A stretch of DNA of 64,000 bases from the NCBI RefSeq assembly GCF_022828475.1, contig NZ_CP059557.1, positions 5,751,470 to 5,815,469 of the forward strand, given 5' to 3'. The notes under the pieces were generated by a model that was not told the DNA's origin, did no database searches, and saw nothing but the letters and a program-made list of their open reading frames with translations. This DNA comes from Saccharopolyspora gloriosae. GTDB taxonomy: Bacteria; Actinomycetota; Actinomycetes; Mycobacteriales; Pseudonocardiaceae. Positions within the stretch are counted from its first letter, which is position 1, and every line of letters starts with the position of its first letter. Shown piece by piece: positions 14,374 through 57,205 of this stretch. Position numbers and translations under genes: made by a program.

Positions 14374-14428
14374 TGGAGTGAACGGACCGCTCGTCCCATC
14401 CCCTCGGACCAACAGGCCGTTCACTCCA
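14374..14428. repeat. Palindromic element copy 1 (degenerate arms)
   Basis: The left arm is GAGTGAACGGACCGCTCGTC and the loop is about 9 nt. The right arm ends GGCCGTTCACTCCA and has about four mismatches to a perfect stem. This is the first of three copies in the pucR/xdh gap. The spacer after it (GACGAGGCGGCACCGCGAA) recurs after copy 2. Confidence 0.85.
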
Positions 14429-14470
14429 CCCCCACCCCCCGACGAGGCGGCACCGCGAACGAGCGGATCT

Positions 14471-14523
14471 GAGTGAACGGACCGCTCGTCCCATCCCCTT
14501 GGACCAACAGGCCGTTCACTCCA
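14471..14523. repeat. Palindromic element copy 2 (degenerate arms)
   Basis: Nearly identical to copy 1, including the same arm mismatches. The interval from copy 1 is 97 bp and shares flanking sequence, so the two arose by tandem duplication after the arms had diverged. Confidence 0.85.
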
Positions 14524-14563
14524 CCCCACCCCCGACGACGCGGCACCGCGAACAAGCGGATCT

Positions 14564-14616
14564 GAGTGAACGGACCGTTCGTCCGATCCCGTTGGACCAA
14601 CGGTCCGTTCACTCCA
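14564..14616. repeat. Palindromic element copy 3
   Basis: The left arm is GTGAACGGACCGTTCGTCC and the right arm pairs with one mismatch around GATCCCGTT. It is closest to the operon start at 14828. The remaining 14617-14827 is the candidate control region of the xanthine dehydrogenase operon and has no gene. Confidence 0.9.
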
Positions 14617-14827
14617 CTCCCGTCCGGGCGGCGCCGCGGGTGGGTGGGGTGGGTTTGTAGGAATGTACGAACTGCGGCCGTTCACCCGTCTGGCATTTCG
14701 GGTTTTCCACCGCTGGTCAACGTGGGTTCACCGGTTGTGTACTGGAACAACGGCCCGGCGGTGAGCTCCGCGAGTGATGTGGCGCTCGGCGACTCGGCCG
14801 ACCGAACCCCGACAGAGAGAAGGCGCC

Positions 14828-15709
14828 GTGGACTTCCTGCGTCCGACCTCGTGGCGCGAGGCCCTGGAGCTCAGGGCGGCCCGCCCGGAGGCGACCGTGC
14901 TGGCGGGCGGCACGGATGTGCTCGTGGAGGTCAATTTCGGGCATCGCAGCCCGGAGGCCTTGCTGGATCTCACGAACATCTCCGAACTCCAGGACTGGTC
15001 CGAGTCCGGCGGGCTGGTGCGCATCGGTGCGGGCCTGCCGTACACGCGGCTGATCGACGAGCTGGGCGATCGGCTGCCGGGACTCGCGATGGCGTCCCGG
15101 ACGGTGGGCTCACCGCAGATCCGCAACCGGGGCACGCTCGGCGGCAACCTCGGCTCGGCCTCTCCGGCCGGGGACGCGCATCCGGCGTTGCTGGCCTCGG
15201 ACGCGGAGATCGAGGTGGCATCGGTGCGCGGCACCCGGTTGCTGCCGATCACCGAGTTCTTCACCGGACCCAAGCGCAACGCGCTCGCCGCCGACGAGTT
15301 GATCGCGGCAGTGCACCTGGCACCGGCATCGGGGCCGCAGCAGTTCGCGAAGGTGGGCACCCGGAACGCGATGGTGATCGCGGTCTGCACCTTCGCGATC
15401 GCGTTGCACCCGCAGCGGCGGCAGGTCGGCACCGGGGTCGGTTCGGCCGCGCCCACCCCGTTCCGGGCGCGAGCCGCCGAGGACTTCCTCGCCACCGAAC
15501 TCACCGACACCGACCAGTGGGAACACCCCCGCGCCCTGCCGGACCTGGCGGCGAACCGGTTCGGCGAACTCGTCGCGGCCGCGGCGAGCCCGATCGACGA
15601 CGTGCGCGGCACCGCCGGCTACCGGCGGCACGCGCTGGGCGTGCTGGCCCGGCGCACGGTGCACCGCGTGTGGGACGAACACCGCACCTGGAGGCGGCAA
15701 TGCGCGTGA
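14828..15709 (+). CDS. Xanthine dehydrogenase FAD-binding subunit
   Basis: The 293-aa product is a CoxM/FAD_binding_5 subunit. It starts MDFLRPTSWREALEL and carries the flavin-binding loops TVLAGGTDVLVE (about residue 25) and TLGGNLGSASPAGD (about residue 100). It would pass electrons from the 2Fe-2S subunit to NAD or another acceptor. The GTG start follows GAGAGAAGG. The stop overlaps the next gene by 10 bp, showing tight coupling in a FAD / 2Fe-2S / deaminase / molybdenum-subunit operon. The C-terminal CO_deh_flav domain is present, so the gene is complete. Confidence 0.9.
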   Translation: MDFLRPTSWREALELRAARPEATVLAGGTDVLVEVNFGHRSPEALLDLTNISELQDWSESGGLVRIGAGLPYTRLIDELGDRLPGLAMASRTVGSPQIRNRGTLGGNLGSASPAGDAHPALLASDAEIEVASVRGTRLLPITEFFTGPKRNALAADELIAAVHLAPASGPQQFAKVGTRNAMVIAVCTFAIALHPQRRQVGTGVGSAAPTPFRARAAEDFLATELTDTDQWEHPRALPDLAANRFGELVAAAASPIDDVRGTAGYRRHALGVLARRTVHRVWDEHRTWRRQCA

Positions 15710-16173
15710 ACTTCACCGTCAACGGCCGGGCGCAGCAGGCCGACAACGTGTGGGAAGGCGAAAGCCTGCTCTACGTGCTGCGGGAGCGGCTCGGGCTGCC
15801 CGGTTCGAAGAACGCCTGCGAACAGGGCGAGTGCGGTTCGTGCACGGTCACCCTGGACGGTGTCGCGGTGTGCGCGTGCCTGGTCGCGGCCGGGCAGGCC
15901 GAGGGCCGTGAAGTGGGCACCGTGGAAGGTCTCGCCGACGGGGACCGGCTCAGCGACGTGCAGCAGGCGTTCCTCGACGCGGGTGCCGTGCAGTGCGGTT
16001 TCTGCACGCCGGGACTGCTGGTGCAGGCGACGGACCTGCTGGACAAGCAGGCCGAGCCCTCGGACGTGGAGATCCGGGAGGCGCTGGCGGGCAACCTGTG
16101 CCGCTGCACCGGTTACGAGAAGATCATGGACGCGGTGCGGCTGGCCGCCGGGCGGAAGTCGGGTCATGCCTGA
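15700..16173 (+). CDS. Xanthine dehydrogenase 2Fe-2S subunit
   Basis: The 157-aa product has the two [2Fe-2S] clusters of the CoxS/XdhC-type small subunit. The plant-ferredoxin-like site is CEQGECGSC, followed by the Cys in GVAVCAC. The second site is CGFCTPG with CRCTGY in the helical C-terminal domain. It relays electrons between the molybdenum centre and FAD. The ATG at 15700 lies inside the end of the FAD subunit gene and has GGAGGCGG just upstream. Its stop overlaps the next start by 8 bp. Confidence 0.93.
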   Translation: MRVNFTVNGRAQQADNVWEGESLLYVLRERLGLPGSKNACEQGECGSCTVTLDGVAVCACLVAAGQAEGREVGTVEGLADGDRLSDVQQAFLDAGAVQCGFCTPGLLVQATDLLDKQAEPSDVEIREALAGNLCRCTGYEKIMDAVRLAAGRKSGHA

Positions 16174-17548
16174 GCCGGCGGCCCGGTTCGTGCTCGACGG
16201 CGCCGCGATCGCCACCGTCGATGGCCCGGAGCACGCCGAAGGCCACGTCGTCGTCGAAGGTGACCGCATCGTTGAGGTCTCACCCGGGCGGGCGGACTCG
16301 TCGCAGGGCGAGCGGATCGACGTGAGCGGCTGCTTGATCACTCCCGGACTGGTCAACACCCACCACCACCTGTACCAGTGGGCGACGCGCGGTCATGCGG
16401 CCGATTCGCCGCTGTTCGACTGGCTGACGCGGCTCTACCCGGTGTGGGCGGGGCTGGACGAGGACGGCACGCACGCCGCGGCCGCCGCCGGACTGGCCAG
16501 GCTCGCGTTGTCGGGGGCGACCACGGTCGCCGACCACCACTACGTCTTCCCCCGCGACGGCGGCGACGTGTTCGGCGCGGTCGTCTCGGCCGCCGGGAGC
16601 ATCGGGGTGCGGCTGCACGCGGTGCGCGGCTCGATGGATCGCGGCCGGTCCCGCGGCGGGCTGCCGCCGGACTCCTTGGTGGAGGACCTCGACACGGCGC
16701 TGGCCCGAACGGACGAGGCGATCCGCCGGTTCCACGATCCGGCTCCCGGTTCGGCGGTGCGGGTCGCGGTGGGTCCGTGTTCGCCGTTCAGCGTCAGCGA
16801 ACAGCTGATGCGGGAGAGCGCGGAGCTGGCGCGGGCGCGCGGGGTGCGGCTGCACACCCATCTCGCGGAGACCGCCGACGAGCAGCGGCAATGCCTCGCG
16901 GAGTTCGGGCGCACCCCCGTGGAGTACGCCGACGACTTGGGCTGGCTGGGGCCGGACGTGTGGCTCGCGCACACCGTGCACTTGGCGGAACCGGCCGTGG
17001 CTCGGCTCGCCGAGACCGGCACCGGCTCGGCGCACTGCCCCAGTTCCAACGGGAGGCTCGGCGCGGGCGTCGCGCCGGTGCGGGCGCTGCTGGACGCGGG
17101 CGTGCCGGTGGGGCTCGGGGTGGACGGTGTCGCCTCGAACGAGGCGGGCGGGCTCGGTGAGGAGATGCGCCAGGCGTTGCTGACGGCCCGCGCTCAGCAC
17201 GGTGCGGCGGCGTTGTCGGTGCGGGAGGCGTTGTTCGCCGCCACCCTCGGCGGCGCACGCTGCCTGGGCAGGCAGGACGAGATCGGCTCGCTGCGGCCCG
17301 GCAAGCTCGCCGACCTCGCGGTGTGGCGCCTCGACGGGCTGGGGCACGCGGGAATCGAAGATCCGATCGCCGCGCTGGTGCTGGGTCCGTTGCCGCCGCT
17401 GCGGTTGCTGCTGTGCGGTGGGCGCGGCGTCGTGCGGGACGGCCTGCTGAGCTCGATGTCCGAAGTGGACTTGGCGCGGGATCTGCGCGCCGCGAGCACC
17501 GGAATCCGTGCTCGATCCGAACGACTCGACGGGGAGGTGGCCCGATGA
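16166..17548 (+). CDS. 8-oxoguanine deaminase-like amidohydrolase
   Basis: The 460-aa product belongs to the TrzN/AtzA/SsnA amidohydrolase family and most resembles 8-oxoguanine deaminase, which turns 8-oxoguanine into urate. It shows the metal site GLVNTHHHLYQ (about residue 63), HTHLAETADEQ with the catalytic Glu, LAHTVHL, and the DGVASNE Asp motif. It sits inside the xanthine dehydrogenase operon, overlapping the genes on both sides (ATGA with the next). Both this enzyme and XDH would yield urate. Guanine deaminase or another aromatic deaminase remains an alternative. Confidence 0.85.
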   Translation: MPEPAARFVLDGAAIATVDGPEHAEGHVVVEGDRIVEVSPGRADSSQGERIDVSGCLITPGLVNTHHHLYQWATRGHAADSPLFDWLTRLYPVWAGLDEDGTHAAAAAGLARLALSGATTVADHHYVFPRDGGDVFGAVVSAAGSIGVRLHAVRGSMDRGRSRGGLPPDSLVEDLDTALARTDEAIRRFHDPAPGSAVRVAVGPCSPFSVSEQLMRESAELARARGVRLHTHLAETADEQRQCLAEFGRTPVEYADDLGWLGPDVWLAHTVHLAEPAVARLAETGTGSAHCPSSNGRLGAGVAPVRALLDAGVPVGLGVDGVASNEAGGLGEEMRQALLTARAQHGAAALSVREALFAATLGGARCLGRQDEIGSLRPGKLADLAVWRLDGLGHAGIEDPIAALVLGPLPPLRLLLCGGRGVVRDGLLSSMSEVDLARDLRAASTGIRARSERLDGEVAR

Positions 17549-19839: not shown

Positions 19840-19913
19840 ACCCGGCTACGGCCCGCGTTCCCGAACCGCCCGAGCGATACCCGCTGATTCCCCTATCCGG
19901 CTGGAGATTCCAC

Positions 19914-20408: not shown

Positions 20409-20415
20409 GACGGCC

Positions 20416-20732: not shown

Positions 20733-22169
20733 ATGTCCGAGCCCACCACTCTCGACCGGCCCAACGCCCTCGACCGGTACTTCCGCATCACCGCCCGCGG
20801 CTCCACGCTGAGCCGGGAAATCCGCGGCGGCCTCACCACGTTCGTCGCCATGTCCTACATCGTGCTGCTCAACCCGCTGATCCTCGGCGCCGCCGCCGAC
20901 AGCACCGGTGCCACGCTCACCACCACCCAGCTCACCACCGCGACCGCGCTGTCGGCGGGAGTGATGACGGTGCTGATGGGCGTCGTCGGCAACGCCCCGC
21001 TCGCCATGGCCGCCGGACTCGGCGTGATCCCCGTGGTCGCGTTCACCATCGCGCCCGCCATGACCTGGCCGCAGGCGTTCGGGCTCGTCGTGCTCGAAGG
21101 CCTGGCGATCGTGGTGCTCGCCGCCAGCGGGGTGCGGCAACGCATCATCCGGGCCATTCCCGAACCGCTGAAAGTCGCGCTGACCGTGGGAATCGGGCTC
21201 TACATCGCGCTCGTCGGTCTCGTCAGCGCCGGATTCGTCACCCGCAAACCCGACGCCGCCGACACCACGGTGCCCGTGCAACTGGGCTCCGACGGAAACC
21301 TGACCGGATGGCCCGTCGCGCTGTTCTGCGTCACGGTGCTGCTGATGATCGTGCTGGTCACCCGGCAGGTACCCGGGGCGATCCTGATCAGCATCGCGAC
21401 CGGCACCGTGCTGTCGCTCGGTGTGCAGGCGTTATGGCCGCTGCCCGAACAACAGTGGGGCGTGGTCACCCCGGAGCTCCCGGACAGCGTGATCTCCGCG
21501 CCGGACCTGAGCCTGCTCGGACACGTCGACCTGTTCGGCGGGTTCGGCTCCGCCGGGGCCGTGGCCTGCGCGGCGTTCCTGTTCACCCTCATCCTGTCCG
21601 GGTTCTTCGACGCCATGGGCACGATCACCAGCGTCAGCCGCGAAGCCGGACTCAGCTCCCCCGACGGGGACGGCACCGATGTGCCCGGCATGGGGCGCAT
21701 CCTCGTCGTCGACGGCATCGGCGCCGTCGCGGGCGGTTTCAGCGGGAGCTCACCGAACACCGTGTTCCTCGAATCCGCCGCCGGAGTCGGTGAAGGCGCC
21801 CGCACCGGATTCGCCAGCGTCATCACCGGGCTCCTGTTCGCCGCGACCACCCTGTTCACCCCGCTCGCCGCCGTGGTGCCCGCGCAGGCCGCCGCGCCTG
21901 CGCTCGTGCTCGTGGGCGGGATGATGATGGCGCAATGCAGGCACATCCCGTGGCAGGACCAGAGCTACGTGCTGCCCGTGTTCCTCACCGTCGCCGTCAT
22001 CCCCTTCACGTACTCGATCACCAACGGCATCGGCGCCGGGCTCATCGCCTACTGCGCGATCCGGATCTGCCAGGGGAAGGCGGGCGAACTCGGCGGGCTG
22101 CTGATCGCGCTGGCCGGTGTGTTCGCGCTGTACTTCGGCATCGCAGGCATCGAAGCCCTCTTCGGCTGA
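20733..22169 (+). CDS. NCS2-family purine permease (AzgA/PbuG type)
   Basis: The 478-aa product has 12 or more hydrophobic segments and the AzgA-subfamily N-terminus DRYFRITARGSTLSREIRGG followed by TTFVAMSYIVLLNP. Conserved loops include NAPLAMAAGLGV and the substrate-site region LSGFFDAMGTITSV, then GAVAGGFSGSSPNTVFLES. This subfamily imports adenine, guanine and hypoxanthine with protons, which fits delivery of substrate to the upstream purine-degrading enzymes. The ATG follows CGGAGG. It is probably regulated with the XDH operon, although a hairpin separates them. Confidence 0.9.
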   Translation: MSEPTTLDRPNALDRYFRITARGSTLSREIRGGLTTFVAMSYIVLLNPLILGAAADSTGATLTTTQLTTATALSAGVMTVLMGVVGNAPLAMAAGLGVIPVVAFTIAPAMTWPQAFGLVVLEGLAIVVLAASGVRQRIIRAIPEPLKVALTVGIGLYIALVGLVSAGFVTRKPDAADTTVPVQLGSDGNLTGWPVALFCVTVLLMIVLVTRQVPGAILISIATGTVLSLGVQALWPLPEQQWGVVTPELPDSVISAPDLSLLGHVDLFGGFGSAGAVACAAFLFTLILSGFFDAMGTITSVSREAGLSSPDGDGTDVPGMGRILVVDGIGAVAGGFSGSSPNTVFLESAAGVGEGARTGFASVITGLLFAATTLFTPLAAVVPAQAAAPALVLVGGMMMAQCRHIPWQDQSYVLPVFLTVAVIPFTYSITNGIGAGLIAYCAIRICQGKAGELGGLLIALAGVFALYFGIAGIEALFG

Positions 22170-22180
22170 GCCGCTTTCGA

Positions 22181-22232
22181 AGTGAACGGACCGTTCGCCC
22201 AACAAGACTGGACGAACGGTCCGTTCACTCCA
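22181..22232. repeat. Palindromic element copy 4
   Basis: Arms are AGTGAACGGACCGTTCGCCC and its complement with one wobble position. The loop is AACAAGACT. It begins 11 bp after the permease stop and could also act as a terminator. Confidence 0.9.
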
Positions 22233-22286
22233 TCCCGTCCCCGTGCGCCGGTGCGGTGGTGGACGCCGGTTGGTCGATCCGGAAGT

Positions 22287-22338
22287 GAGTGAACGGACCG
22301 TTCGTCCCATGGGATTGGGCGAACGGTCCGTTCACTCC
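22287..22338. repeat. Palindromic element copy 5
   Basis: Arms GTGAACGGACCGTTCGTCC and GGGCGAACGGTCCGTTCAC have one wobble around CATGGGATT. It lies 50 bp before the MobA-like gene, and its GTG is in frame with that gene. Confidence 0.9.
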
Positions 22339-30864: not shown

Positions 30865-31545
30865 ATGAGTTTGCAGTTGCGCGACATCACCCTCACCTAC
30901 CCCGACGGCGATTCGCGGCTCACCGCCGTGGACCGCGCGGACCTGCAGGTGCCCGCCGGTTCGGTGACGGCCGTGATCGGCCCGTCCGGCTCGGGCAAGT
31001 CCAGCCTGCTCGCCGTCGCCGCCGCGCTGGTCACACCCGATTCCGGTCAGGTCGTCGTGGACGGCACCACCGTCACGGGCATGAGCCAGGCGCAGCGGAC
31101 CGCGGTGCGGCGGGAGAAGATCGGCATCATCTTCCAGCAGCCGAACCTGATCGCGTCGCTGACCGCGGCCGAGCAGTTGCAGGTCATGGCGCACCTCGAT
31201 GGCCGTTCGGCGCGGGAGGCGCGGGGCCGGGCGGTGGAGCTGCTGGACGCGGTCGGGTTGTCGGACAAGAAGGACCGCAGGCCGCACCAGCTCTCCGGTG
31301 GGCAGCGGCAGCGCGTCAACATCGCCCGCGCCCTCATGAACGACCCGGCGGTGCTGCTGGTGGACGAGCCGACCAGCGCGCTCGACCACGAGCGCGGGGC
31401 CGCGGTGATCGAGCTGCTCACCACGCTGACGCATCGTCGAGCCACGGCGACCGTGCTGGTCACCCACGACACCACGCACCTCGGCGGGGTCGACCAGGTC
31501 GCGGAGGTCCTCGACGGCCGCGTCCGCGTTCCCGCAGCGAACTGA
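30865..31545 (+). CDS. ABC transporter ATP-binding protein (LolD/MacB type)
   Basis: The 226-aa product shows Walker A GPSGSGKSS (about residue 39), the Q-loop FQQPNLIAS, signature LSGGQRQRV, Walker B VLLVDEPTSALD and the switch His in LVTHDT. It belongs to the MacB-like ATPases that partner FtsX-type permeases. The ATG follows AAGGAG. It forms a two-gene exporter operon with the preceding permease. Confidence 0.95.
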   Translation: MSLQLRDITLTYPDGDSRLTAVDRADLQVPAGSVTAVIGPSGSGKSSLLAVAAALVTPDSGQVVVDGTTVTGMSQAQRTAVRREKIGIIFQQPNLIASLTAAEQLQVMAHLDGRSAREARGRAVELLDAVGLSDKKDRRPHQLSGGQRQRVNIARALMNDPAVLLVDEPTSALDHERGAAVIELLTTLTHRRATATVLVTHDTTHLGGVDQVAEVLDGRVRVPAAN

Positions 31546-31588: not shown

Positions 31589-31639
31589 GAGTGAACGGAC
31601 CGTTCGACCAATCACCTTGGACGAACAGTCCGCTCACTC
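31589..31639. repeat. Palindromic element copy 6
   Basis: The left arm GTGAACGGACCGTTCGACC pairs with the right arm with about three mismatches. It begins 44 bp after the ATPase stop. It is the first of three copies spaced 94-95 bp apart in the 613-bp gap before the methyltransferase. Confidence 0.88.
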
Positions 31640-31683
31640 GGAAACGCCCCCGCCAAGCGGCGCACAGTGCACTGCCCGGCAAT

Positions 31684-31734
31684 GAGTGAACGGACCGTTC
31701 GACCAATCTGCTTGGACGAACGGTCCGCTCACTC
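31684..31734. repeat. Palindromic element copy 7
   Basis: Arms GTGAACGGACCGTTCGACC and GGACGAACGGTCCGCTCAC have two mismatches around AATCTGCTT. Confidence 0.88.
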
Positions 31735-31777
31735 CGAACCCGAACCTGCAGCCGCGGGGGCGATGACTGATCGAGAT

Positions 31778-31828
31778 GAGTGAGCGGACCGTTCGTCCGA
31801 TGAGATGGGACGAACGGTCCGTTCACTC
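31778..31828. repeat. Palindromic element copy 8
   Basis: Arms GTGAGCGGACCGTTCGTCC and GGACGAACGGTCCGTTCAC have one wobble around GATGAGATG. The remaining 31829-32158 holds only a short CAAGATC-ATC-GATCTTG inverted repeat (32103-32119) and no gene. Confidence 0.88.
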
Positions 31829-33161: not shown

Positions 33162-34661
33162 GTGAGTGAAGCGGTGGACGAGAATCACGAGGACCTCCCG
33201 GAGCAGATGCGCATCCGGCGGGAGAAGCTGGACCGGCTGCGGGAGAACGGAGTCGACCCCTACCCGGTCGGCTACCCCCGGACCACCGCGATCGGTCCCG
33301 TCCGCGAGAAACACGACGGGCTCGAAGCCGACGTGGCCACCGGAGACCGGGTGTCGGTCACCGGCCGGGTGCTGCTGTACCGCACGGGCGGCAAGCTGTG
33401 CTTCGCCACCATCCGCGACGACAGCGGCTCCATCCAGATCATGCTGGCGCTGGACAAGGTCGGCGCCGAAGCGCTGGAGGCGTGGAAGGCCGATGTGGAT
33501 CTCGGCGACCACGTGGGCATCACCGGCGAGGTGATCACTTCCAAGCGCGGCGAGCTTTCGATCATGGCGGACGAGTGGACGCTGACCTCGAAGTGCCTGC
33601 GCCCGCTGCCGGAAAAGCACAAGGGGCTCACCGATCCCGAGGCGCGGGTGCGGCAGCGCTACGTCGACCTGATCGTCAACCCCGAGTCGCGCCAGCTCGT
33701 GCAGCAGCGCGGCAAGGCCGTGCAGGCGTTGCGTTCGGTGCTGCTGGACCGCGACTACCTCGAAGTCGAGACCCCGATGCTGCAGCAGGTGCACGGCGGA
33801 GCCACGGCCCGGCCGTTCACCACGCACATCAACGCCTACGACCTGGACCTGTACCTGCGCATCGCGCCCGAGCTGTACTTGAAGCGGCTCGTCGTCGGTG
33901 GTGTGGAGCGGGTTTTCGAGATCAACCGCAACTTCCGCAACGAGGGCGCGGACTCCACGCACAACCCCGAGTTCACGATGCTGGAGTTCTACGAGGCCTA
34001 CGGCGACTACGACACGGCCGCCGAGCTCACCGCGGAACTCATCCGGCAGGCCGCCAAGGCCGTGTTCGGCGACTTCGTGGTGCGCCACCCCGAACACGGG
34101 GACATCGACCTCGGCGGGGAGTGGCCGTCGATCACGCTCTACGGCTCCGTCGGCGAGGCCCTCGGCACGGAGATCACCCCGCGGACTCCGGTCGAGTCGC
34201 TGCGTGAGCTGGCCGACGCGAAGGAGATCGCGTGGGACCCGTCGTGGGGTCCGGGCAAGCTGGTGGAGCACCTGTTCGAGGAGCTCGTCGAGCACACCCT
34301 GGTGGTCCCCACGTTCGTCCGGGACTTCCCGTTGGAGACCAGCCCGCTCACCCGCCAGCACCGGGACGATCCGCTGCTGACCGAGAAGTGGGACCTGATC
34401 GGGTTCGGCATGGAGCTCGGCACCGGGTTCTCCGAGCTGGTCGACCCGGTGGAGCAGCGACGCAGGCTCACCGAGCAGTCGCTGATGGCCGCAGGCGGCG
34501 ACGCCGAAGCGATGCAGCTCGACGAGGACTTCCTGCGCGCCCTCGAGTACGGCATGCCGCCCACCGGCGGCGTGGGCATCGGCATCGACCGGATGCTGAT
34601 GGCGTTCACCGGCAAGGGAATCCGGGACACCATCCTGTTCCCGATGGTCAAGCCGAACTGA
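33162..34661 (+). CDS. lysS: Lysyl-tRNA synthetase, class II
   Basis: The 499-aa product has the full LysRS plan. An N-terminal OB-fold anticodon domain (TGRVLLYRTGGKLCFATI) precedes a class II catalytic core with motif 2 FEINRNFRNEGADSTHNPEF and motif 3 GIGIDRMLMAFTGK. Length is normal. The GTG start is chosen for the typical N-terminus (SEAVDENHEDLPEQMRIRRE). A 12-bp stem hairpin follows the stop. It is an essential housekeeping gene without unusual features. Confidence 0.96.
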   Translation: MSEAVDENHEDLPEQMRIRREKLDRLRENGVDPYPVGYPRTTAIGPVREKHDGLEADVATGDRVSVTGRVLLYRTGGKLCFATIRDDSGSIQIMLALDKVGAEALEAWKADVDLGDHVGITGEVITSKRGELSIMADEWTLTSKCLRPLPEKHKGLTDPEARVRQRYVDLIVNPESRQLVQQRGKAVQALRSVLLDRDYLEVETPMLQQVHGGATARPFTTHINAYDLDLYLRIAPELYLKRLVVGGVERVFEINRNFRNEGADSTHNPEFTMLEFYEAYGDYDTAAELTAELIRQAAKAVFGDFVVRHPEHGDIDLGGEWPSITLYGSVGEALGTEITPRTPVESLRELADAKEIAWDPSWGPGKLVEHLFEELVEHTLVVPTFVRDFPLETSPLTRQHRDDPLLTEKWDLIGFGMELGTGFSELVDPVEQRRRLTEQSLMAAGGDAEAMQLDEDFLRALEYGMPPTGGVGIGIDRMLMAFTGKGIRDTILFPMVKPN

Positions 34662-39568: not shown

Positions 39569-39615
39569 GTGAACGGACCGTTCGTCCGATCCGCTTGGAC
39601 GAACGGTCCGTTCAC
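39569..39615. repeat. Palindromic element copy 9
   Basis: A perfect 19-bp stem (GTGAACGGACCGTTCGTCC and its complement) surrounds GATCCGCTT. The 39396-39882 gap contains three copies and no gene. Confidence 0.92.
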
Positions 39616-39675
39616 ACCGATCCGTCGCCGTGGCGGTGAGCACGGATCCGCCGCGCACCGGGAGCGGTTTCGCGA

Positions 39676-39722
39676 GTGAACGGACCGTTCGCCCAACAGG
39701 ATCGGACGAACGGTCCGTTCAC
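39676..39722. repeat. Palindromic element copy 10
   Basis: Arms GTGAACGGACCGTTCGCCC and GGACGAACGGTCCGTTCAC have one mismatch or wobble around AACAGGATC. Confidence 0.9.
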
Positions 39723-39788
39723 CCTCGGAGAAATCCCGCTGAGTCTGCCGGCGCGTGGGCGTGTCGGCCCGACGGCTCGAAGCGGGGG

Positions 39789-39843
39789 TGGAGTGAACGG
39801 ACCGTTCGCCCAACTAGATGGGACGAACGGTCCGTTCACTCCA
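39789..39843. repeat. Palindromic element copy 11 (longest stem)
   Basis: The stem covers GTGGAGTGAACGGACCGTTC on one side and its exact complement on the other, extended by three more pairs, around AACTAGAT. It lies 40 bp beyond the stop of the penicillin-acylase-family gene and could terminate its transcription. Confidence 0.92.
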
Positions 39844-39882: not shown

Positions 39883-42882
39883 TCAGCGGTGTGACGGGAA
39901 CTCGACGACCTGTTGGTAGGTGGGGCGGTTCTGCCAGCTGATGGGGTCGTGGGCGATGCCGCCGATCTTGTTCTGGATGATCGCGTCGGCGCACCACTGG
40001 TCGCCGGGCTCGCAGTCCGCGTCGCCGGGGTAGGTCTGCTCGGCCGGGGTCGCGTCGGCCGCGGCGAGGCTGTCGACCAGTGCCTGACGGCAGGCGCCGA
40101 GATCCCCGTCGCCGCACAACGAGTTGCCCGGTCGCGGGTCGCCCTGCCCGAATCCGCCGGGAACGTCCTCGCCGAGCGCGCCGCGCAGGTTCTTCGACAC
40201 CTGCCCGTACCAGCCGACCAGGAACGCCGAGCCCTGGTGCGCTTGCCCGACGTGTTCGCCGGGTTCCTCGTTCTGCCAGCCCGACGGCGACTCGTTGATC
40301 TGCGCCGCCCCGGTCAGCGCCCGGTAGGTGTCCGGCCCGAGCGCGGGTTCGAACGTGCCGCGCACCAGCAGCGGCCACCAGGCGTCCAGAAGCTCGATCG
40401 CCTCGGCGTGGGCGTATTCGCGGCTGCCCGGTTCGGTCTCGGTACGCAGCCCGCCGTCGTGGAGCCAGTCGCGCAACAGCTTGATCCGGGCGGCGAGCTC
40501 CGGGTCGTCGCTCGGCGCGCTGTCGAGCACCCGCAGCAGGTCCGGCAGCACCCGCTCGGCGCGCAGGTCGGCCAGCCCGGCCTCCTCCATCGCCCGAGTC
40601 AGGTCGGCCCGGTTCACGCCGCCCTCGGCGACGAGACCGCGAACGCGGGAGTCGAGCAGGTCGCCGCGCTGCACGGCGCCCTTGCTCCAGTCCGCGCCGC
40701 TGGTACCGGGAGCCTGCTTGTTGTTCCAGCTGACGAAGTAGTCCTGGTCCACCGCCCGCGGATGCTCCTCGAACGGTGCGTAGTCCGCGGTGTTCCCGTC
40801 CGGGTTCCAGCCCCGCCACTCGAACTCGGGGTCGGAGACCACCGGCATGCTCGGGTCCACTTCGGGGTTGCGGACGACGTTGTCGCCGGAGTTGAAGTGC
40901 GCGGTGTGCTCGGAGTCGGCGTAGAACCAGTTGAACGTGTAGTTCACGTCCTCGGCGGCGCGCTGGAACGCCTCCGGCGAGGTGATCTCGGCGGGGTCGT
41001 TGAAGCGCTGGAAACCGATGATCGAGTCGACTTCGTGCTGGAAGGTCGAGCGCACCGAGGCGTAGGCGACGGGTTTGCCGTCGACGGTGGCGCGGTGCGT
41101 CACCGGCCCGTACCGCGTGCGGAACGAGACCAGCCGGTACGAGCCGGCCGGGGTGTCGTCGCCCAGGTTGGGCTCCCAGGAGTTGCGCCGCTCGACCTGC
41201 TGCATCGGCAGGCATTCGCCGCGGAACAGGTAGTGGTCGGATTCCCTGGTGACCGGCCCGCCGTCGGGTGCGCACAGTTCCACCGCGTAGGTGTCGATGA
41301 TGTCCTGCGCAGCCGTGGTGGCGCTCCACGAGTAGTCCTGGCCGCGCCCCAGCAAGGTGTAGAAGCTCAGGCCCGCGAACGACGCGCCCTTCGACGAGAT
41401 CCCCGGCCCTTGGAGCTCCTGCAAGGTCAGCAGCTGCGGGGCGAAGTAGCCGGTCTGCGGGCCGAACACGGCGATCGGGTTGCCGCTGTCGGTGTGTTCG
41501 CCGGAGACCATCAGCGCGTTCGACATGCCGCGCGGTTCGGCCATGTCGGCGGGCACGACGCCGTCGTTGAAGATGCCGCGCAGCGCTTCCGCTTGGGCGG
41601 GCTTGTCGTTCGAGTCCGGCTGGGCGTTGTTCGGCTTTGTCACCGGTGTCTGACGCTGCTGCGGGCTCTGCTCCGGGTCGGCGGCGGAGCCGGTGGGGTC
41701 GAACACGAGCTGCTGCTCGGTCACCGAACCCGGATCGGGCATCGCCGCGCCTTTCGGGTTCTCCGGGGACACCGCGTACGGGAACGAGCCGTTGTGCACG
41801 GTGGGGATCGACTCGGGGTCGTTCTCGGCGCGGAAGGTGCGCCACACCTGCTCGCCGCGTTCGGGGCCGAATCGCTCGTGCAGTGACATCCGCGCCACCG
41901 CCTGCTGCACCTCGTTACCGCCGCCGCCACCGAACTGGGCGCCGACCAGCGAGGCGAGCACAACGAGGTCGGCGAGCTTGAACGGCTCGATCTCGCCTGC
42001 GTTGGTGATCGCGTCCACGTGCCCGGTCGCCACGTACTCGCCGGGGAAGTAGCGACCCTCGTGCGCCTGGCGGATGTAGGTGTTGATCCCGTCCACATAG
42101 GACGTCGCGTCGGCGAGCGCCTGCTCGCCGCGCGGCCCCGCCGACCGAGCGACCTCGATCTGCTGCTCCAGCTCCTGCTCGGTGTAGGGGGAGGTGGCGA
42201 AGAAGTCCTGTTCCAGTTCGCGGTTGGCGGGTGCGCCGCCCGCGAACGAGCTGACCTCGCCGCGACCGGCCCGGCGCAGCGCGTCCATCAGGAACAACTT
42301 GTCCTCGGCGGTCGTGAAGCCTGCGCCGAAGGTGGTGCCGTCGCGGGTGTCGCCGTAGATGTGCGGAATGCCCGCGGTCTTGTCCCGGACCACGGTGACG
42401 TCTTCGCGCGGCCGGTAGGTGCGTTCCACGTCATCGGGCCGGACGCCGAAGGAATCGTCGTTGAAGAACTCGTTGATGGTGCCGGTGGTGAGCTCCGAGT
42501 ATCCGGTGGCGAGCTCGGCGTAGGGCTTGGTCTGGTCGGCCGCGTGCGGCGGTGTGGTGCCGAGCAGCAGGTGCCCGGCGAGCTCGGCGAGCGTGGCGTT
42601 GCCGTTCTGGCCCGGCGGCAGGATGTGGTGGCACTGCCCGCCGCAGTAGTCCGGCACCTGCGGCACGTCCGGCACGGGTGAGCTCGATGCGAGTGCGTCC
42701 GGCACAGGTGCGTGCGGCGGGGGTGCGCCCGGCGCGGGTGCGCCCGGCGCGAGTGCGCCCGGCGCGAGTGCGCCCGGCGCGGGTGCGTGCGGTGCGGGGA
42801 CCGCGGCGGCCGCGGGAGTGAGGATCAAGGCGCCGACGACGGCCCCGACGCTGAGTGCGGCCACGATCCGCTGCCCTGTCAT
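39883..42882 (-). CDS. Secreted penicillin acylase-family (S45) Ntn-hydrolase
   Basis: The 999-aa product is a pre-pro-enzyme. It has a signal peptide (residues 1-27), a low-complexity Ala-Pro-Gly linker (about 28-70), an alpha chain and then the beta chain. The beta chain would be released by cleavage before Ser454 in GMSNALMVSGEH, the N-terminal nucleophile. EWRGWNPDGN and NYTFNWFYAD are further family segments. Relatives include penicillin, cephalosporin and acyl-homoserine-lactone (quorum-quenching) acylases. The substrate cannot be told from sequence. The ATG follows GAGAGGAC. The linker is encoded by 15-bp tandem repeats. Confidence 0.88.
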   Translation of the reverse strand: MTGQRIVAALSVGAVVGALILTPAAAAVPAPHAPAPGALAPGALAPGAPAPGAPPPHAPVPDALASSSPVPDVPQVPDYCGGQCHHILPPGQNGNATLAELAGHLLLGTTPPHAADQTKPYAELATGYSELTTGTINEFFNDDSFGVRPDDVERTYRPREDVTVVRDKTAGIPHIYGDTRDGTTFGAGFTTAEDKLFLMDALRRAGRGEVSSFAGGAPANRELEQDFFATSPYTEQELEQQIEVARSAGPRGEQALADATSYVDGINTYIRQAHEGRYFPGEYVATGHVDAITNAGEIEPFKLADLVVLASLVGAQFGGGGGNEVQQAVARMSLHERFGPERGEQVWRTFRAENDPESIPTVHNGSFPYAVSPENPKGAAMPDPGSVTEQQLVFDPTGSAADPEQSPQQRQTPVTKPNNAQPDSNDKPAQAEALRGIFNDGVVPADMAEPRGMSNALMVSGEHTDSGNPIAVFGPQTGYFAPQLLTLQELQGPGISSKGASFAGLSFYTLLGRGQDYSWSATTAAQDIIDTYAVELCAPDGGPVTRESDHYLFRGECLPMQQVERRNSWEPNLGDDTPAGSYRLVSFRTRYGPVTHRATVDGKPVAYASVRSTFQHEVDSIIGFQRFNDPAEITSPEAFQRAAEDVNYTFNWFYADSEHTAHFNSGDNVVRNPEVDPSMPVVSDPEFEWRGWNPDGNTADYAPFEEHPRAVDQDYFVSWNNKQAPGTSGADWSKGAVQRGDLLDSRVRGLVAEGGVNRADLTRAMEEAGLADLRAERVLPDLLRVLDSAPSDDPELAARIKLLRDWLHDGGLRTETEPGSREYAHAEAIELLDAWWPLLVRGTFEPALGPDTYRALTGAAQINESPSGWQNEEPGEHVGQAHQGSAFLVGWYGQVSKNLRGALGEDVPGGFGQGDPRPGNSLCGDGDLGACRQALVDSLAAADATPAEQTYPGDADCEPGDQWCADAIIQNKIGGIAHDPISWQNRPTYQQVVEFPSHR
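42676..42795 (-). repeat. 15-bp tandem repeat in the acylase linker
   Basis: About eight units of GGGTGCGCCCGGCGC and variants run in frame. They encode the pentapeptides A-P-G-A-L/P between signal peptide and mature enzyme. The central five units (42721-42795) are nearly identical, so copy number could vary between strains. Confidence 0.9.
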
Positions 42883-48422: not shown

Positions 48423-48475
48423 GGAGTGAACGGACCGTTCGCCCAATCCCGTTGGACGAACGGTCCGTTCACTCC
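48423..48475. repeat. Palindromic element copy 12 (single copy cluster)
   Basis: Arms GTGAACGGACCGTTCGCCC and GGACGAACGGTCCGTTCAC have one wobble around AATCCCGTT. It lies 20 bp beyond the stop of the SMP-30 gene. It is the only cluster in the window with a single copy. Confidence 0.9.
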
Positions 48476-48494: not shown

Positions 48495-49343
48495 TCAGCC
48501 TGTGAAGGGGTGGGAGCGGAGGCCGGTTCCGGCGTTGGGCAGGACCAGGACCGCGCCGTCGGCCGAGGTGGGGTCGGCGACGCCTTCGCGGGCGGTGGTG
48601 ATGTACAGATCGGTGAGGTCCTCACCACCGAAGCAGCAGCCCGTCGGCCGCCGCGACGGCAACGGCACCGTCCGGTCCAGGCGACCGTCCGGCGTGTAGC
48701 GACGCACCTCGCCGCTGTCCCGCACGGCGATCCACACGCAGCCCTCGACGTCGGTGCACAATCCCGCGGGCTCCCCGGCCACCTCGAACACCGGGCGCCG
48801 GTCGGAGGCCGCACCGGACACGGGGTCGACGGTGAGCGCATCGACGCGCCGGGTCGCGCTGTCGGCGAAGTACAAGACGGTGTCGTCGGGGCTCCACGCC
48901 AGCCCGTTGCCCGCGCCGATCCCGTTGAGCACCACGCTCGCCGCACCTGCCGCATCGACCCGGATCAGCCAGCCGTCGCCGCGCTCGCCCTCGGGAACGG
49001 TGTGCGCCCACACCCGCCCGCAGGAGTCGACGGTGGTCTCACCGCCCCGGACCCCGTCGCGCGCCCAGAAGGTGAGCCAGGTGCGCCGTTCGCCGTCCGG
49101 GGCGTAGAGCGCGACGCCTTCGTCGAAATGCAGCAGCAGCCCGCCGCGCGACCGCGGTTTCGCGGCGCTGACCTGCTGCGGAACCTCCATGGAGTGGTCG
49201 GTGTCGTCGGGCGCGTAGCGGTGCACGGTGCGGGACCGGAGATCGGTCCACAACAGGCTCGCGGTCCCCGCATCCCAGGTGGGACCGTGCCCGAACAGCG
49301 CGTCGGCTAGCACGGCCTGCTCGGCCCGTGCGGTGGTGTGCAC
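48495..49343 (-). CDS. SMP-30/gluconolactonase-family protein
   Basis: The 282-aa product is a six-bladed beta-propeller of the SMP-30/regucalcin type. It has FGHGPTWDAGTASLLWTDL with the first metal-ligand Glu replaced by His/Pro context, then GNGLAWSPDDTVLYFADS with the conserved Asn and Asp, and GCVWIAVRDSGEVRRY. Relatives hydrolyse sugar lactones. The GTG start follows GGAGGTATGAGCG. No sugar dehydrogenase is adjacent, so the lactone substrate is unknown. Confidence 0.87.
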   Translation of the reverse strand: MHTTARAEQAVLADALFGHGPTWDAGTASLLWTDLRSRTVHRYAPDDTDHSMEVPQQVSAAKPRSRGGLLLHFDEGVALYAPDGERRTWLTFWARDGVRGGETTVDSCGRVWAHTVPEGERGDGWLIRVDAAGAASVVLNGIGAGNGLAWSPDDTVLYFADSATRRVDALTVDPVSGAASDRRPVFEVAGEPAGLCTDVEGCVWIAVRDSGEVRRYTPDGRLDRTVPLPSRRPTGCCFGGEDLTDLYITTAREGVADPTSADGAVLVLPNAGTGLRSHPFTG

Positions 49344-51661: not shown

Positions 51662-51694
51662 ACCAGCGCGGCGTTCGCGGTGAAAGGGGAAACG

Positions 51695-52114: not shown

Positions 52115-52210
52115 CGCCCGCGCCCCGGCCGACGTCGTGGTCAATCCGACGGCCCCGTCGGCCAACCCCTGTGCAGAACATGATCGAAGACCGGCAGTTA
52201 GGGTGAGCGC

Positions 52211-53571: not shown

Positions 53572-53628
53572 CGGTAGGCGAGACGGGCGGATTTCCGACC
53601 TCGTTCCGGGGAGTCGCGGGCCGACTTC

Positions 53629-54613: not shown

Positions 54614-54699
54614 CGGACACCGGCCCCGATCGCAGATCCTGCTGTGACGGCAGTCGCCTCGATGCACGGTGAACGGGCGGTGGCGGTTAGGTTCCGCTG

Positions 54700-55458
54700 G
54701 TGTTCAGCGAATGGATCGAGCCGGTGGTGCTGGTCGTCGTCGGATTCCTGTCCGGCGCGATCAACGCCGTGGCCGGTGGTGGCTCGCTGCTGGTGTTCCC
54801 GGCGCTGCTCGCCACCGGCATGCCGCCGCTGGTCGCGAACGTCACGAACTCGGTAGCGCAAGGACCGGGCTTCGTCGGCGCCGCGATCAGCCAGCGCGAG
54901 GACCTGAAGGGGACGCAGCGACGGCTGCTGTGGACGTCGATCGCGGCGGGCGTCGGCTCCGTGCTCGGTTGCGTGCTGCTGCTGGTGCTGCCCGGCGAGG
55001 TGTTCGACGCGGTGGTTCCCGCACTGGTGGGACTGTCCGCAGTGCTGATGGCGTTCCAGAACACGATCAAGCGATGGCTAGGCCACCCGGACGAGGGTGG
55101 GCCGGACCGGACGATGTGGCTCACCGTAGGGATCTTCTTCGCCTCGATCTACGGCGGCTACTTCGGCGGCGCTCGCAGCGTCATCCTCATCGCGATCCTG
55201 GTGCTCGCGGTGAACGACTCGATGCGCAGGCTCAACGCGCTCAAGAGCTGGCTCGGACTGATCGGCAGCGCCGTGACGTTCGTGGTGTACGCGCTGATCG
55301 CACCGGTCGACTGGACCGCGGTGCTGATGCTGGTGCCCACGACGGTGCTCGGCGGCTTCGTCGGCGGCAAGATCGCCCAACGGCTGCCCGCCACGCTGCT
55401 GCGCTACCTGGTCGTGATCATCGCCGCCGGAGTAGCCATCTACCTCGTCCTCGACTGA
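54700..55458 (+). CDS. TSUP-family (TauE/SafE) transporter
   Basis: The 252-aa product has seven or eight membrane segments and the TSUP repeats: GAINAVAGGGSLLVFPALLA near the N-terminus and FFASIYGGYFGGARSVILI in the second half. Family members export sulfite or other organosulfur anions. The substrate cannot be assigned. The GTG start gives the standard N-terminus. An IS110-type element follows immediately after its stop. Confidence 0.9.
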   Translation: MFSEWIEPVVLVVVGFLSGAINAVAGGGSLLVFPALLATGMPPLVANVTNSVAQGPGFVGAAISQREDLKGTQRRLLWTSIAAGVGSVLGCVLLLVLPGEVFDAVVPALVGLSAVLMAFQNTIKRWLGHPDEGGPDRTMWLTVGIFFASIYGGYFGGARSVILIAILVLAVNDSMRRLNALKSWLGLIGSAVTFVVYALIAPVDWTAVLMLVPTTVLGGFVGGKIAQRLPATLLRYLVVIIAAGVAIYLVLD

Positions 55459-55469
55459 CAGTGATGATG

Positions 55470-55681
55470 TTCGTGGTGACGTTTCCGGTGGGTCTGACCC
55501 TTCGACTGACTGACGTTTCGACTGTCTGGTTTGGGATTTGTCGGCCCGCCGGGTGCCACCATGCACGCGGCCGGACGGGTGTTTGTGACTTCATAGGAGC
55601 TTGGCCAGAAGCCCCGTCACTGTCTTGTCCACCCGCCCGACCGGCGCGTGCCGCCCTCGGAACGGACACGCAAGGACGGAC
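55470..55681 (+). ncRNA. Possible bridge RNA region of the IS110 element
   Basis: IS110-group elements transcribe a structured bridge RNA from the non-coding left end, upstream of the transposase. This 212-nt stretch is the only place for it. I cannot fix its boundaries, loops or promoter from sequence alone, so this is inference from the family. Confidence 0.4.
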
Positions 55682-56767
55682 ATGACCAGCATGACCCATG
55701 ATGGCCCGAAAATCACCGGCGGAGTCGACACCCACGGCTTGACCCACCACGCGGCCGTGATCGACTCCGTCGGCCGGCACCTGGCTGACCGGGAATTTCC
55801 CGCCACAGTCCACGGCTACCGCGACCTGCTGCACTGGATGCGTGGTCACGGCACCTTGGTCACGGTCGGCGTCGAGGGAACCGGCGCCTACGGAGCCGAG
55901 CTGGCCCGGGTTCTCGCGGCGGCCGGGGTCGCGGTCACCGATGTCGACCGCCCGGACCGCAAGATCCGCCGGATGCAAGGCAAATCCGATCCGATCGACG
56001 CCTACGCCGCCGCCACCGCCGTGCTCTCCGGGCGCGCGACAGGCACCCCGAAAAGCCGGGACGGCGTGATCGAGTCGGTGCGCGTGTTACGAGTCGCACG
56101 CCGCAGTGCCGTCAAGGCCCGCACCCAGGCGATGAACCAAATCCGCGGCCTGCTGGTGTCGGCACCCGCGATGCTGCGCGCACAGGTCGCGGGACTGGAC
56201 CGGGCCACGCTGCTGCGCACCCTGGCCCGGCTACGGCCCGGCGACGACCTCGGACACCCGCTGGCGGCGACCCGGGCGGCACTACGACGCCTGGCGCGGC
56301 GCCACCAAGCAATGGACATCGAGATCACCGAACTCGACGCCGAACTCAGCCCCCTCACCCGGCAGGCCGCACCCCAGCTGCTGGAACTATTCGGCGTCGG
56401 CCCTGACACCGCCGGCCAGCTCCTGACCACAGCCGGGGACAACCCCGAACGACTACGCTCCGAAGCCTCGTTCGCGCACCTGACCGGCGTCGCACCAATC
56501 CCGGCATCCTCCGGTCGCACCCACCGCCACCGCCTCAACCGCGGCGGCGACCGGGCCGCGAACAACGCCCTGCACACCATCGTCCTGGTCCGCATGCGCT
56601 ACGACGAACGCACCCGCACCTACGTCGAACGCCGCACCAAAGAAAGACTATCCAAAAAGGACATTATGCGCTGCCTCAAACGATTCGTCGCCCGCGAAAT
56701 CCACCGCACCCTGACCAGCACACCCACCAGATCAACCAGGCAAAACGACCTCACTCCAGCGGCTTGA
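55682..56767 (+). CDS. IS110-family transposase
   Basis: The 361-aa product has the N-terminal DEDD_Tnp_IS110 RuvC-like domain (Asp16 in GVDTHGL, Glu65 in GVEGTGAYG, then KSDPIDAYAA with the Asp pair) and the C-terminal Transposase_20 domain. The latter has LFGVGPDTAGQLL, GVAPIPASSGRT with the catalytic Ser, and NRGGDRAANNALH. The ATG follows AAGGACGG. Length is normal and no frameshift is present, so the enzyme may be active. Confidence 0.94.
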   Translation: MTSMTHDGPKITGGVDTHGLTHHAAVIDSVGRHLADREFPATVHGYRDLLHWMRGHGTLVTVGVEGTGAYGAELARVLAAAGVAVTDVDRPDRKIRRMQGKSDPIDAYAAATAVLSGRATGTPKSRDGVIESVRVLRVARRSAVKARTQAMNQIRGLLVSAPAMLRAQVAGLDRATLLRTLARLRPGDDLGHPLAATRAALRRLARRHQAMDIEITELDAELSPLTRQAAPQLLELFGVGPDTAGQLLTTAGDNPERLRSEASFAHLTGVAPIPASSGRTHRHRLNRGGDRAANNALHTIVLVRMRYDERTRTYVERRTKERLSKKDIMRCLKRFVAREIHRTLTSTPTRSTRQNDLTPAA

Positions 56768-56797
56768 CATCTATAGGAGCATCCCCGCAGCTACCGA

Positions 56798-56846
56798 AGT
56801 GAACGGACCGCTCGTCCAACAAGACTAGGCAAACGGTCCGTTCACT
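56798..56846. repeat. Palindromic element copy 13 (121-bp tandem unit 1)
   Basis: The left arm is AGTGAACGGACCGCTCGTCC. The right arm GGCAAACGGTCCGTTCACT has lost pairing near the loop (AACAAGACTA). It starts about 30 bp after the transposase stop. Confidence 0.88.
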
Positions 56847-56918
56847 CCAAAAACCTCTCGTCCCGCGGCGCGCGCCGCAGCACCACGCCTTCCTCACCCG
56901 GCCCGCGCGGCGATGGAG

Positions 56919-56967
56919 AGTGAACGGACCGCTCGTCCAACAAGACTAGGCAAACGGTCCGTTCACT
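56919..56967. repeat. Palindromic element copy 14 (121-bp tandem unit 2)
   Basis: Identical to copy 13 in the arms and loop, exactly 121 bp away. The intervening spacer is nearly the same, so the whole unit was duplicated. Confidence 0.88.
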
Positions 56968-57039
56968 CCAAAAACCTCTCGTCCCGCGGCAGGCGTCGCA
57001 GCACCGCGCCTTCCTCGCCCAGCCCGCGCGGCGATGGAG

Positions 57040-57088
57040 AGTGAACGGACCGCTCGTCCAACAAGACTAGGCAAACGGTCCGTTCACT
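57040..57088. repeat. Palindromic element copy 15 (121-bp tandem unit 3)
   Basis: Third copy of the 121-bp unit with the same arm mutations. The following spacer is shortened before copy 16. Confidence 0.88.
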
Positions 57089-57150
57089 CCAGAAACCTCT
57101 TGTCCTGCGGCGCAGCACCGCGCTTTCCTCGCCCGGCCGCGGCGATGGAG

Positions 57151-57205
57151 TGAAGTGAACGGACCGTTCGTCCCACGAGATTGGACGAACGGTCCGTTCA
57201 CTTCA
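57151..57205. repeat. Palindromic element copy 16
   Basis: A near-perfect stem (GAAGTGAACGGACCGTTCGT and its complement) surrounds CCCACGAGAT. It has intact arms, unlike the three tandem copies beside it. The gap 56768-57303 has no gene. Confidence 0.92.

Follow-up and report, generated by a model that had tools for sequence, protein, structure and literature searches.

REPIN-like hairpin elements arrayed past gene ends in Saccharopolyspora gloriosae and related Pseudonocardiaceae

MITEs are short, non-autonomous, dispersed elements with inverted repeats, and Rickettsia palindromic elements (RPEs) are palindromes that can lie inside coding sequences, are larger than the elements described here and are not known to be arranged in such arrays. 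RPEs are named in PMC3733652, which in its passages on REP/BIME sequences describes palindromes of 20–40 bp that are often paired in opposite orientation, lie mostly between tandem and convergent genes, behind coding regions, and in some cases lie in genes. REPINs are REP doublets that form hairpins (Bertels and Rainey 2011, PMC3116915; PMC8049555). As characterized in parts of these two papers, they pair two short palindromic units in inverted orientation around a spacer, are high in copy number and extragenic, form clusters attributed to local amplification and persist for a long time, and each of these traits has a counterpart in the elements of S. gloriosae. In the relevant part of one survey, the Actinobacteridae sampled had only subclass 1.1 (IS200-type) TnpA-Y1 enzymes (PMC6006769).

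The window analysed here, a stretch of 64,000 nt, contains 32 arm matches at ≤ 3 mismatches, while 100 dinucleotide shuffles of it gave a mean of 0.08 and a maximum of 2. The matches form 16 complete elements between 14378 and 57201, which is the number of copies given in the initial annotation. Each element is 47 bp long from arm to arm, with arm starts offset by 28 bp and a loop of 9 nt, and is built of a near-palindromic 19-mer that is present twice, in inverted orientation. The arm is itself internally palindromic, as had been noted (GAACGG-A-CCGTTC, with GAACGGACCGTTC within each arm), so that a palindromic REP-like unit recurs in inverted orientation to form one hairpin. The actinobacterial LexA box, which we take to be GAAC-N4-GTTC, was rejected as an identity by inspection, because the spacing here is N5. 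The often perfect pairing that had been described needed correction: only two of the 16 elements (39569 and 57155) match the consensus exactly in both 19-bp arms, and the remaining 14 carry 1–4 arm mismatches to the consensus in total. The elements also differ from REPINs in size: they measure 47–55 bp, whereas the doublets of P. fluorescens SBW25 have spacings of 71 and 110 bp. Unlike the GTAG- and CGTC-tagged REPs in the REP/BIME passages of PMC3733652, they have neither tag at their outer ends in counts of flanking bases, where GA before and TC after the element are commonest.

The 16 elements lie in six intergenic arrays of 3, 2, 3, 3, 1 and 4 elements, five of which hold elements repeated in tandem every 93–121 bp or so, and not single scattered copies. 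Array 1 (14378..14612; elements at 14378..14424, with arms 14378–14396 and 14406–14424, 14473..14519 and 14566..14612) lies between divergent genes for a PucR-type regulator (12829–14322, − strand) and a FAD-binding molybdopterin dehydrogenase subunit (14828–15709, + strand). Array 2 (22182..22335; elements at 22182..22228 and 22289..22335) begins 13 bp past the stop of a permease gene (20733–22169, + strand) and precedes a MobA-like gene (22403, + strand), and array 3 (31591..31826; elements at 31591..31637, 31686..31732 and 31780..31826) begins 46 bp past the stop of an ABC-transporter ATPase gene (30871–31545, + strand). Two arrays follow genes on the − strand: array 4 (39569..39839; elements at 39569..39615, 39676..39722 and 39793..39839) is 44 bp past the stop of a penicillin-amidase-type gene (39883–42675), and the single element of array 5 (48426..48472) is 23 bp past that of an SMP-30-type gene (48495–49343). 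Array 6 (56799..57201; elements at 56799..56845, 56920..56966, 57041..57087 and 57155..57201) lies between convergent genes for an IS110-type transposase (55682–56767, + strand) and a TetR-type protein (57304–57927, − strand). The two elements with exact arms have predicted RNA folds of −38.9 kcal/mol (39569..39615; z −7.8) and −36.0 kcal/mol (57155..57201; z −7.4). Rfam matches in the window at the gathering threshold were limited to 5S, 16S, 23S and a single tRNA, with nothing at the elements, and a described RNA family was therefore rejected as their identity.

The S. gloriosae genome spans 6.88 Mb; the gene at position 31 codes for a protein that looks DnaA-like by eye, and the skew changes sign near 3.5 Mb. 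The whole-genome search for the 19-mer arm proposed in the initial annotation found 391 arms at ≤ 2 mismatches and none with the reversed control; the family is thus genome-wide, and these counts, together with those of the window, exclude a chance origin. The claim that the elements are confined to intergenic space also held, since in the stretches fetched from this genome none of 77 arrays overlapped a codon-bias-called gene by > 15 bp; as with REPINs, the copy number is high in extragenic space. Arrays occupied 33 tandem, 30 convergent and only 4 divergent gaps (4 of 67), compared with 417, 132 and 197 gaps overall, a placement like that described for REPs (PMC3733652). The median distance to stop codons was 43 bp (n = 93) and that to starts 174 bp (n = 41), and 29 of the 33 arrays in tandem gaps were closer to the stop. 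A role in marking the replication origin or terminus was rejected, as the region dense in elements lies at neither.

Placement past stop codons would suit hairpins selected by the host at gene 3′ ends, serving as bidirectional terminators, insulators or protectors of mRNA 3′ ends, and the seven elements folded, at −19 to −46 kcal/mol, agree with such a role. We nevertheless consider this explanation rather unlikely. Base counts in the 3′ flanks of 160 elements revealed no T run of the kind that marks an intrinsic terminator, and a few arrays lie between divergent genes. In the transcript sense, G–U was preferred over A–C 59 to 36 in this genome (stem pairs 1–19, 77 unique tandem elements), but this preference was not repeated in relatives (31 to 35; 44 unique elements), and therefore selection on an RNA hairpin at the transcript level was rejected and is not claimed.

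Elements are present in all six genomes of the window's genus (g1). In comparisons with five congeners at 81–89% identity, all 19 comparable gaps were occupied by an array; neither excision nor insertion was observed in this genus, and no gap stood empty. Orthologous arms were 0.900 alike, while the spacers were 0.553 alike and shuffled spacers 0.513. The sequences indicate that the elements undergo concerted turnover in this genus, because same-locus copies in different species were no more alike (0.850) than copies at other loci (0.842). Full occupancy, which a host function would also predict, counts in favour of the 3′-end hairpins and against a replicating element. Also against replicating hairpins, outer-stem pairing in the S. 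gloriosae genome did not exceed what arms varying independently would produce, with 2792 Watson–Crick pairs observed and 2876 expected (148 unique elements, 23 pairs).

The core dyad occurs almost exclusively in one family, which we infer to be the Pseudonocardiaceae: G082, from the family of the window, and the genome of Actinokineospora sp. NBRC 105648, whose genus belongs to the Pseudonocardiaceae, have an identical match at an identical contig position. The REPIN-like architecture recurs in another genus, g16, as hairpins of 53 bp. We regard the g16 and g1 elements as probably one family, a kinship read from the shared dyad and its spacing (30 bp in g1, about 30 bp in g16) and not from a phylogeny. 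At one orthologous g16 gap, nine species carried nine spellings and 13 of 24 pairs had changed on both sides, while the outer hairpin was 95.4% paired across the nine; both sides differed in 29 cells and a single side in 2, and 10 were unpaired, counts for which the shuffle control treats the species as unrelated. The ten unpaired cells show that not all between-species changes were compensated. Three other g16 species have no element at this gap and thus manage without it, which argues against the 3′-end hairpins, and presence/absence of elements was seen at two loci in this genus. The proposed comparison of orthologous gaps thus found none empty in g1, but both empty and filled ones in g16. 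Although the elements are short, dispersed and inverted-repeat like MITEs, inspection by eye showed no target-site duplication at the three empty g16 gaps, and no parent transposon turned up in a non-systematic search.

One g16 genome (G125) had an arm identity of 0.997 (99.7%) across 16 fetched loci with unrelated flanks, the copies having been chosen by similarity to the element of another g16 genome (G156); 24 of 24 outer pairs were kept in 15 of the 16 loci, and the loop was read in both orientations. G156 has 19 doublet loci, of which 13 lie in convergent gaps; in 10 of those the doublets take up the gap and leave ≤ 13 bp to each stop, a fit to gene ends that again favours host-selected hairpins. 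Against them, some g16 copies lie within called genes: an element-like copy was found inside a called coding gene in four of six compared species, and the copy in a called gene of G156 recalls the palindromic RPEs that may sit in coding sequence.

An alternative is that the arrays are clustered sites for a dimeric DNA-binding protein, such as a nucleoid organiser, a roadblock factor or a global regulator, that reads the odd-centred TGAACGG-N-CCGTTCA. In two further genera, g22 and g27, the arrays are built of the single dyad, as many as 23 of them in one array at ≤ 4 mismatches; their half-sites vary nearly independently, the centre is free, and Watson–Crick counts are near expectation at most positions, the exceptions being ±8 in g22 (59 versus 43.3) and ±3 in g27 (21 versus 26.8). 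In g27, T stands at −3 in 18 of 54 and A at +3 in 20 of 54, whereas −2 and +2 are each altered in 1 of 54, a pattern not explained by simple CpG decay. The common dyad spacing in g1 and g16 would also suit bound dimers. Binding sites remain quite improbable as the explanation, however, since divergent promoters are avoided, no candidate protein was found, and the number of exact dyads is patchy within genera: 41 in G156 versus 0–8 in the other 24 sampled g16 genomes, by a count that misses other spellings. Moreover, the dyad core changes between g16 species (GAACGG, GAAAGG and others) while outer pairing is mostly kept, and the regulatory or nucleoid binding site offered in the initial annotation fits such paired changes less well. 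The idea that lone sites in other genera make up a conserved regulon was dropped, as some of these sites lay inside called genes (L239, L241) and others in gaps unrelated to one another.

The initial annotation had also proposed a Y1 (RAYT) transposase as mobiliser. Pfam PF01797 had no match in the whole S. gloriosae genome, whereas 5 of 14 control genomes were positive; the proposal is not supported, no RAYT can be linked to this REP-like class in that genome, and whatever enzyme mobilises the elements is no Y1/RAYT transposase that this profile can detect. Among 22 tested family genomes, 17 lacked a match (including G003–G005, G156, G125, G026, G063 and G246), and matches were found in G001, G002, G274, G279 and G030. 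The elements differ from the REPINs described in the parts of PMC3116915 and PMC8049555 cited above in this lack of a Y1/RAYT match, in their actinobacterial family and in the differently spelled versions at one g16 gap.

Taken together, we hold it to be somewhat probable that the elements are a RAYT-independent, REPIN-like family of non-autonomous hairpin replicators. The REPIN or MITE reading first put forward is thereby partly upheld, by the architecture, copy number and intergenic 3′-end location and by the presence/absence and near-identical dispersed copies in the related genus, but not in its RAYT mobiliser. Copies would be made via a single-stranded hairpin intermediate, would multiply locally into tandem arrays, and would be tolerated mainly past gene 3′ ends, where they do not strike a promoter. 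Resident copies would be continually homogenized to the current master sequence, presumably by overwriting in place, so that the spelling at a locus would change although the locus stays filled. The hairpin constraint would act mainly on the replicating masters and less on each resident; residents would gather uncompensated single changes, and successive between-species versions would differ mostly by paired changes.

We recognized no description of these repeats, or of such a gene-end signal in this family, in open-licence PMC text, and the portion of PMC3610266 (on Saccharopolyspora) covered does not mention them. It is possible, though doubtful, that hairpin replicators of the Pseudonocardiaceae spread without Y1/RAYT and overwrite residents in place; 50-bp palindromes would then home by replacement and would leave 3′ ends hairpin-marked for the lifetime of a genus while the sequences drift in concert, mostly by paired changes. 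REPIN biology rests on the REPIN–RAYT pair; a RAYT-less REPIN-like population, if true, would mean that copying of such hairpins can be carried out by a different enzyme or by the replication machinery itself. The near-identical copies, the empty and filled gap and the many spellings in g16 make repeat homogenization in bacteria directly testable. If the hairpins instead work for the host, they would amount to a signal at gene ends for which our searches of open-licence PMC text turned up no description in this family.

A search of the window with the 19-base arm (at most 3 mismatches) gave 32 matches, 16 each of left and right arms; dinucleotide-preserving shuffles (n = 100) gave 0.08 on average. 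This confirms the 16 palindromes listed in the initial annotation. The left-to-right offset was constant at 28 bases, and the elements form six arrays of 3, 2, 3, 3, 1 and 4 copies. As had been described, each arm is near-palindromic and contains the odd-centred dyad GAACGG-A-CCGTTC, an element's two dyads standing 30 bases apart. The frequent perfect pairing reported was borne out in part, with 2 of the 16 copies exact in both 19-base arms. Among 160 own-genome elements that had the standard length and no more than 6 mismatches over the two arms together, positions 6, 8 and 10 were invariant in both arms, and positions 5, 15 and 17 were the most variable. The predicted RNA folding energy of five window elements was -19 to -39 kcal/mol. 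The family is not confined to the window, since the own genome (one contig, 6.88 Mb) contains 391 arms at up to 2 mismatches and none of the reversed pattern, and all six genomes of the genus carry 93 to 307 arms each (at most 1 mismatch). The own-genome stretches analysed, selected partly via exact arm matches, contain 170 elements.

Within the window, the arrays (14378-57201) are spaced 7.8-9.4 kb from one to the next. The surrounding region of the genome (5.65-5.83 Mb) holds 21 arrays in the 176 kb sampled (best copy with at most 5 mismatches). The expectation is 0.76, since 58 samples of 20 kb taken at even intervals over the rest of the genome had 5 arrays in all; this comparison is post hoc, and several dense stretches were chosen for holding copies. 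The two regularly placed samples that fall within the region held 3 such arrays in 40 kb. The syntenic regions sampled from congeners carry 6 to 16 arrays in 80-120 kb.

The location between genes noted earlier held in the own-genome stretches analysed, where none of 77 arrays covered a gene called from codon bias by more than 15 bases. Among the 69 arrays whose best copy had at most 4 mismatches, 67 were classifiable and occupied 33 tandem, 30 convergent and 4 divergent gaps, versus 417, 132 and 197 in the background of all called gaps of at least 150 bases in the same stretches, those with arrays counted in (chi-square p = 5e-8). The median distance was 43 bases to stop codons (n = 93) and 174 bases to start codons (n = 41), and the stop was the nearer gene end for 29 of the 33 tandem arrays. 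PMC3733652 describes the same placement for REPs.

Syntenic regions of five congeners (81 to 89% DNA identity) were then compared with the window, and all 19 comparable gaps were occupied by an array: 6/6 in G003, 6/6 in G004, 4/4 in G005, 2/2 in G001 and 1/1 in G002. By our reading of the alignments, 8 of the 19 comparisons (arrays 1, 2 and 4) had identical surroundings on both sides, and 11 (arrays 3, 5 and 6) had gene gain or loss on one side, orthology being assigned there from the remaining side or the wider gap. The array 6 gap held degenerate copies in G001 and G002, and array 4 numbered 3 copies in the window, 6 in G003, 4 in G005, 4 in G004 and 2 in G001. In orthologous arrays, identity was 0.900 for best-matching arms (n = 54), 0.553 for best spacers (n = 27; 0.513 when shuffled) and 0.622 for the 40-base outer flanks. 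Copies from different species were 0.850 identical at the same locus versus 0.842 at different loci; inside one species the values were 0.860 for different loci and 0.897 within one array. An array's locus persists between species and its sequence hardly does, the arrays turning over in concert. Positional conservation of this kind is what a host role at gene ends would produce; we rank this explanation second and consider it rather unlikely.

An IS110-type transposase gene (55682-56767; PF01548, PF02371) ends 32 bases ahead of array 6; at the syntenic position, G003, G004 and G005 each have an array and lack the transposase stretch. REP palindromes are targets of some IS110 elements, according to PMC1525189. 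A putative lysyl-tRNA synthetase (33162-34661) is, among the matches listed, 75-80% identical to Nocardiopsis proteins and 62-64% to Pseudonocardia, Actinokineospora and Actinophytocola MAG proteins, and this higher Nocardiopsis identity hints at horizontal transfer.

Of 297 genomes in the window's family, taken to be Pseudonocardiaceae, 88 carried the exact dyad and 3 the reversed control, in a census where one match is about background and other spellings escape the count. Outside the family it occurred in 9 of 294 genomes (a class sample of 296 minus two from the window's family), at most once each, with the reversed control again in 3. Three genomes of genus g22 carried 51, 58 and 76 exact dyads and G156 of genus g16 carried 41; counts were lower in g27, g26 and g23, and the distribution was patchy inside genera. 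The unit of the g22 and g27 arrays is a single dyad, TGAACGG-N-CCGTTCA (at most 4 mismatches), repeated up to 23 times per array. Its halves varied nearly independently; the clearest departures were at ±8 in g22, where matched pairs exceeded expectation (59 vs 43.3), and at ±3 in g27, where they fell short of it (21 vs 26.8). For the repeat family as a whole, arrays of sites for a DNA-binding protein are the reading we rank third and regard as improbable. One g22 array of about 800 bases (L184:9671-10469; 18 copies of the strict pattern) lies between two genes that we take, from their protein sequences by eye, to be ftsW and murG. Four of the five independent g27 loci (L186/L188, L189, L190, L191) have arrays that flank a putative TetR-type regulator gene, recognised by inspection; at three of the four they lie 18-27 bases behind its stop.

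Dyads in G156 are mostly 55-base doublets, TGTTATGAACGGWCCGTTCATAACA twice with 5 bases between; 30 of the 41 sites were retrieved and gave 22 loci, 19 of them doublets. With a gene caller trained on the window's genome, 13 doublets fell in convergent gaps, 3 in tandem gaps and 2 within called genes, and 1 was left unclassified. Ten of the 13 convergent doublets occupy the whole gap, with at most 13 bases to either stop, and a tight fit of this kind is also what a gene-end function would leave. Departing from the doublet pattern, L247:1488-1528 of G156 holds a lone dyad embedded in an extended perfect palindrome, CCCTGAAG-TGTTATGAACGG-A-CCGTTCATAACA-CTTCAGGG. In G125, 16 loci chosen for similarity to the G156 element were practically identical: their arms averaged 0.997 identity, their flanks were unrelated and the loop occurred in both orientations. 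G156 loci were 0.941 alike to each other and 0.784 to G125 loci. In the orthologous gap L248 (G156)/L284 (G125), the two elements were 0.818 alike. Each was closer to the other loci of its own genome, at 0.998 for the L284 element within G125 and 0.932 for the L248 element within G156. Five loci of G598 showed several spellings coexisting in one genome.

Across 15 genomes, the L248/L284 gap held element-like sequence in 12 (poor in G594 and G109) and no element in G592, G141 and G593. Among the nine equal-length elements, pairing of the outer hairpin reached 95.4%, compared with 37.5 to 49.7% in slid controls, and two-sided change occurred at 13 of 24 pairs. Counted by cell, 29 changes were two-sided and 2 one-sided, and 10 cells were unpaired. 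The covariation score was reached by 0 of 500 shuffles, a control that takes no account of relatedness. Support for the two inner dyads was weaker (87.4% paired, 10 of 22 pairs). Because two-sided cells exceed one-sided or broken ones 29 to 12, the pattern suggests that much of the change was whole-unit replacement or arm-to-arm templating. At a second g16 locus, within a called coding gene, G156, G020, G182 and G125 had element-like sequence and the other two of the six genomes, G088 and G592, unrelated sequence instead; total lengths were nearly equal, so insertion and substitution of other sequence both fit.

Resident own-genome copies showed no compensation. The outer stems of 148 unique elements had 2792 Watson-Crick cells versus 2876 expected for independent arms, and over 19 arm pairs double changes were below expectation at paired positions (19 vs 31.1) and above it at unpaired position pairs (162 vs 125.9).

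The initial annotation proposed a REPIN- or MITE-type element, possibly mobilised by a RAYT, or a nucleoid or regulatory binding site. Architecture and placement are indeed those of REPINs, but the own-genome family differs in having neither a RAYT match nor a terminal tag. The proposed mobiliser found no support: the Y1_Tnp profile (PF01797) had no match in the window's genome and was positive in 5 of 14 control genomes. Within the family, 5 of 22 genomes matched (G001, G002, G274, G279 and G030); G000 (the window's genome), G003-G005, G156, G282, G125, G088, G204, G026, G063, G246, G091, G161, G068, G115 and G092 gave no PF01797 match. A published survey assigns the TnpA-Y1 enzymes of the Actinobacteridae in its sample to subclass 1.1 (IS200-type) only (PMC6006769). 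We rank a REPIN-like replicator first and hold it, by a modest measure, to be the probable explanation. A hairpin-replicator population would yield the observed combination of uncompensated residents and mostly paired differences between species if copying depends on pairing more than residence does. Replication of this kind and a function at gene ends may both be true together.
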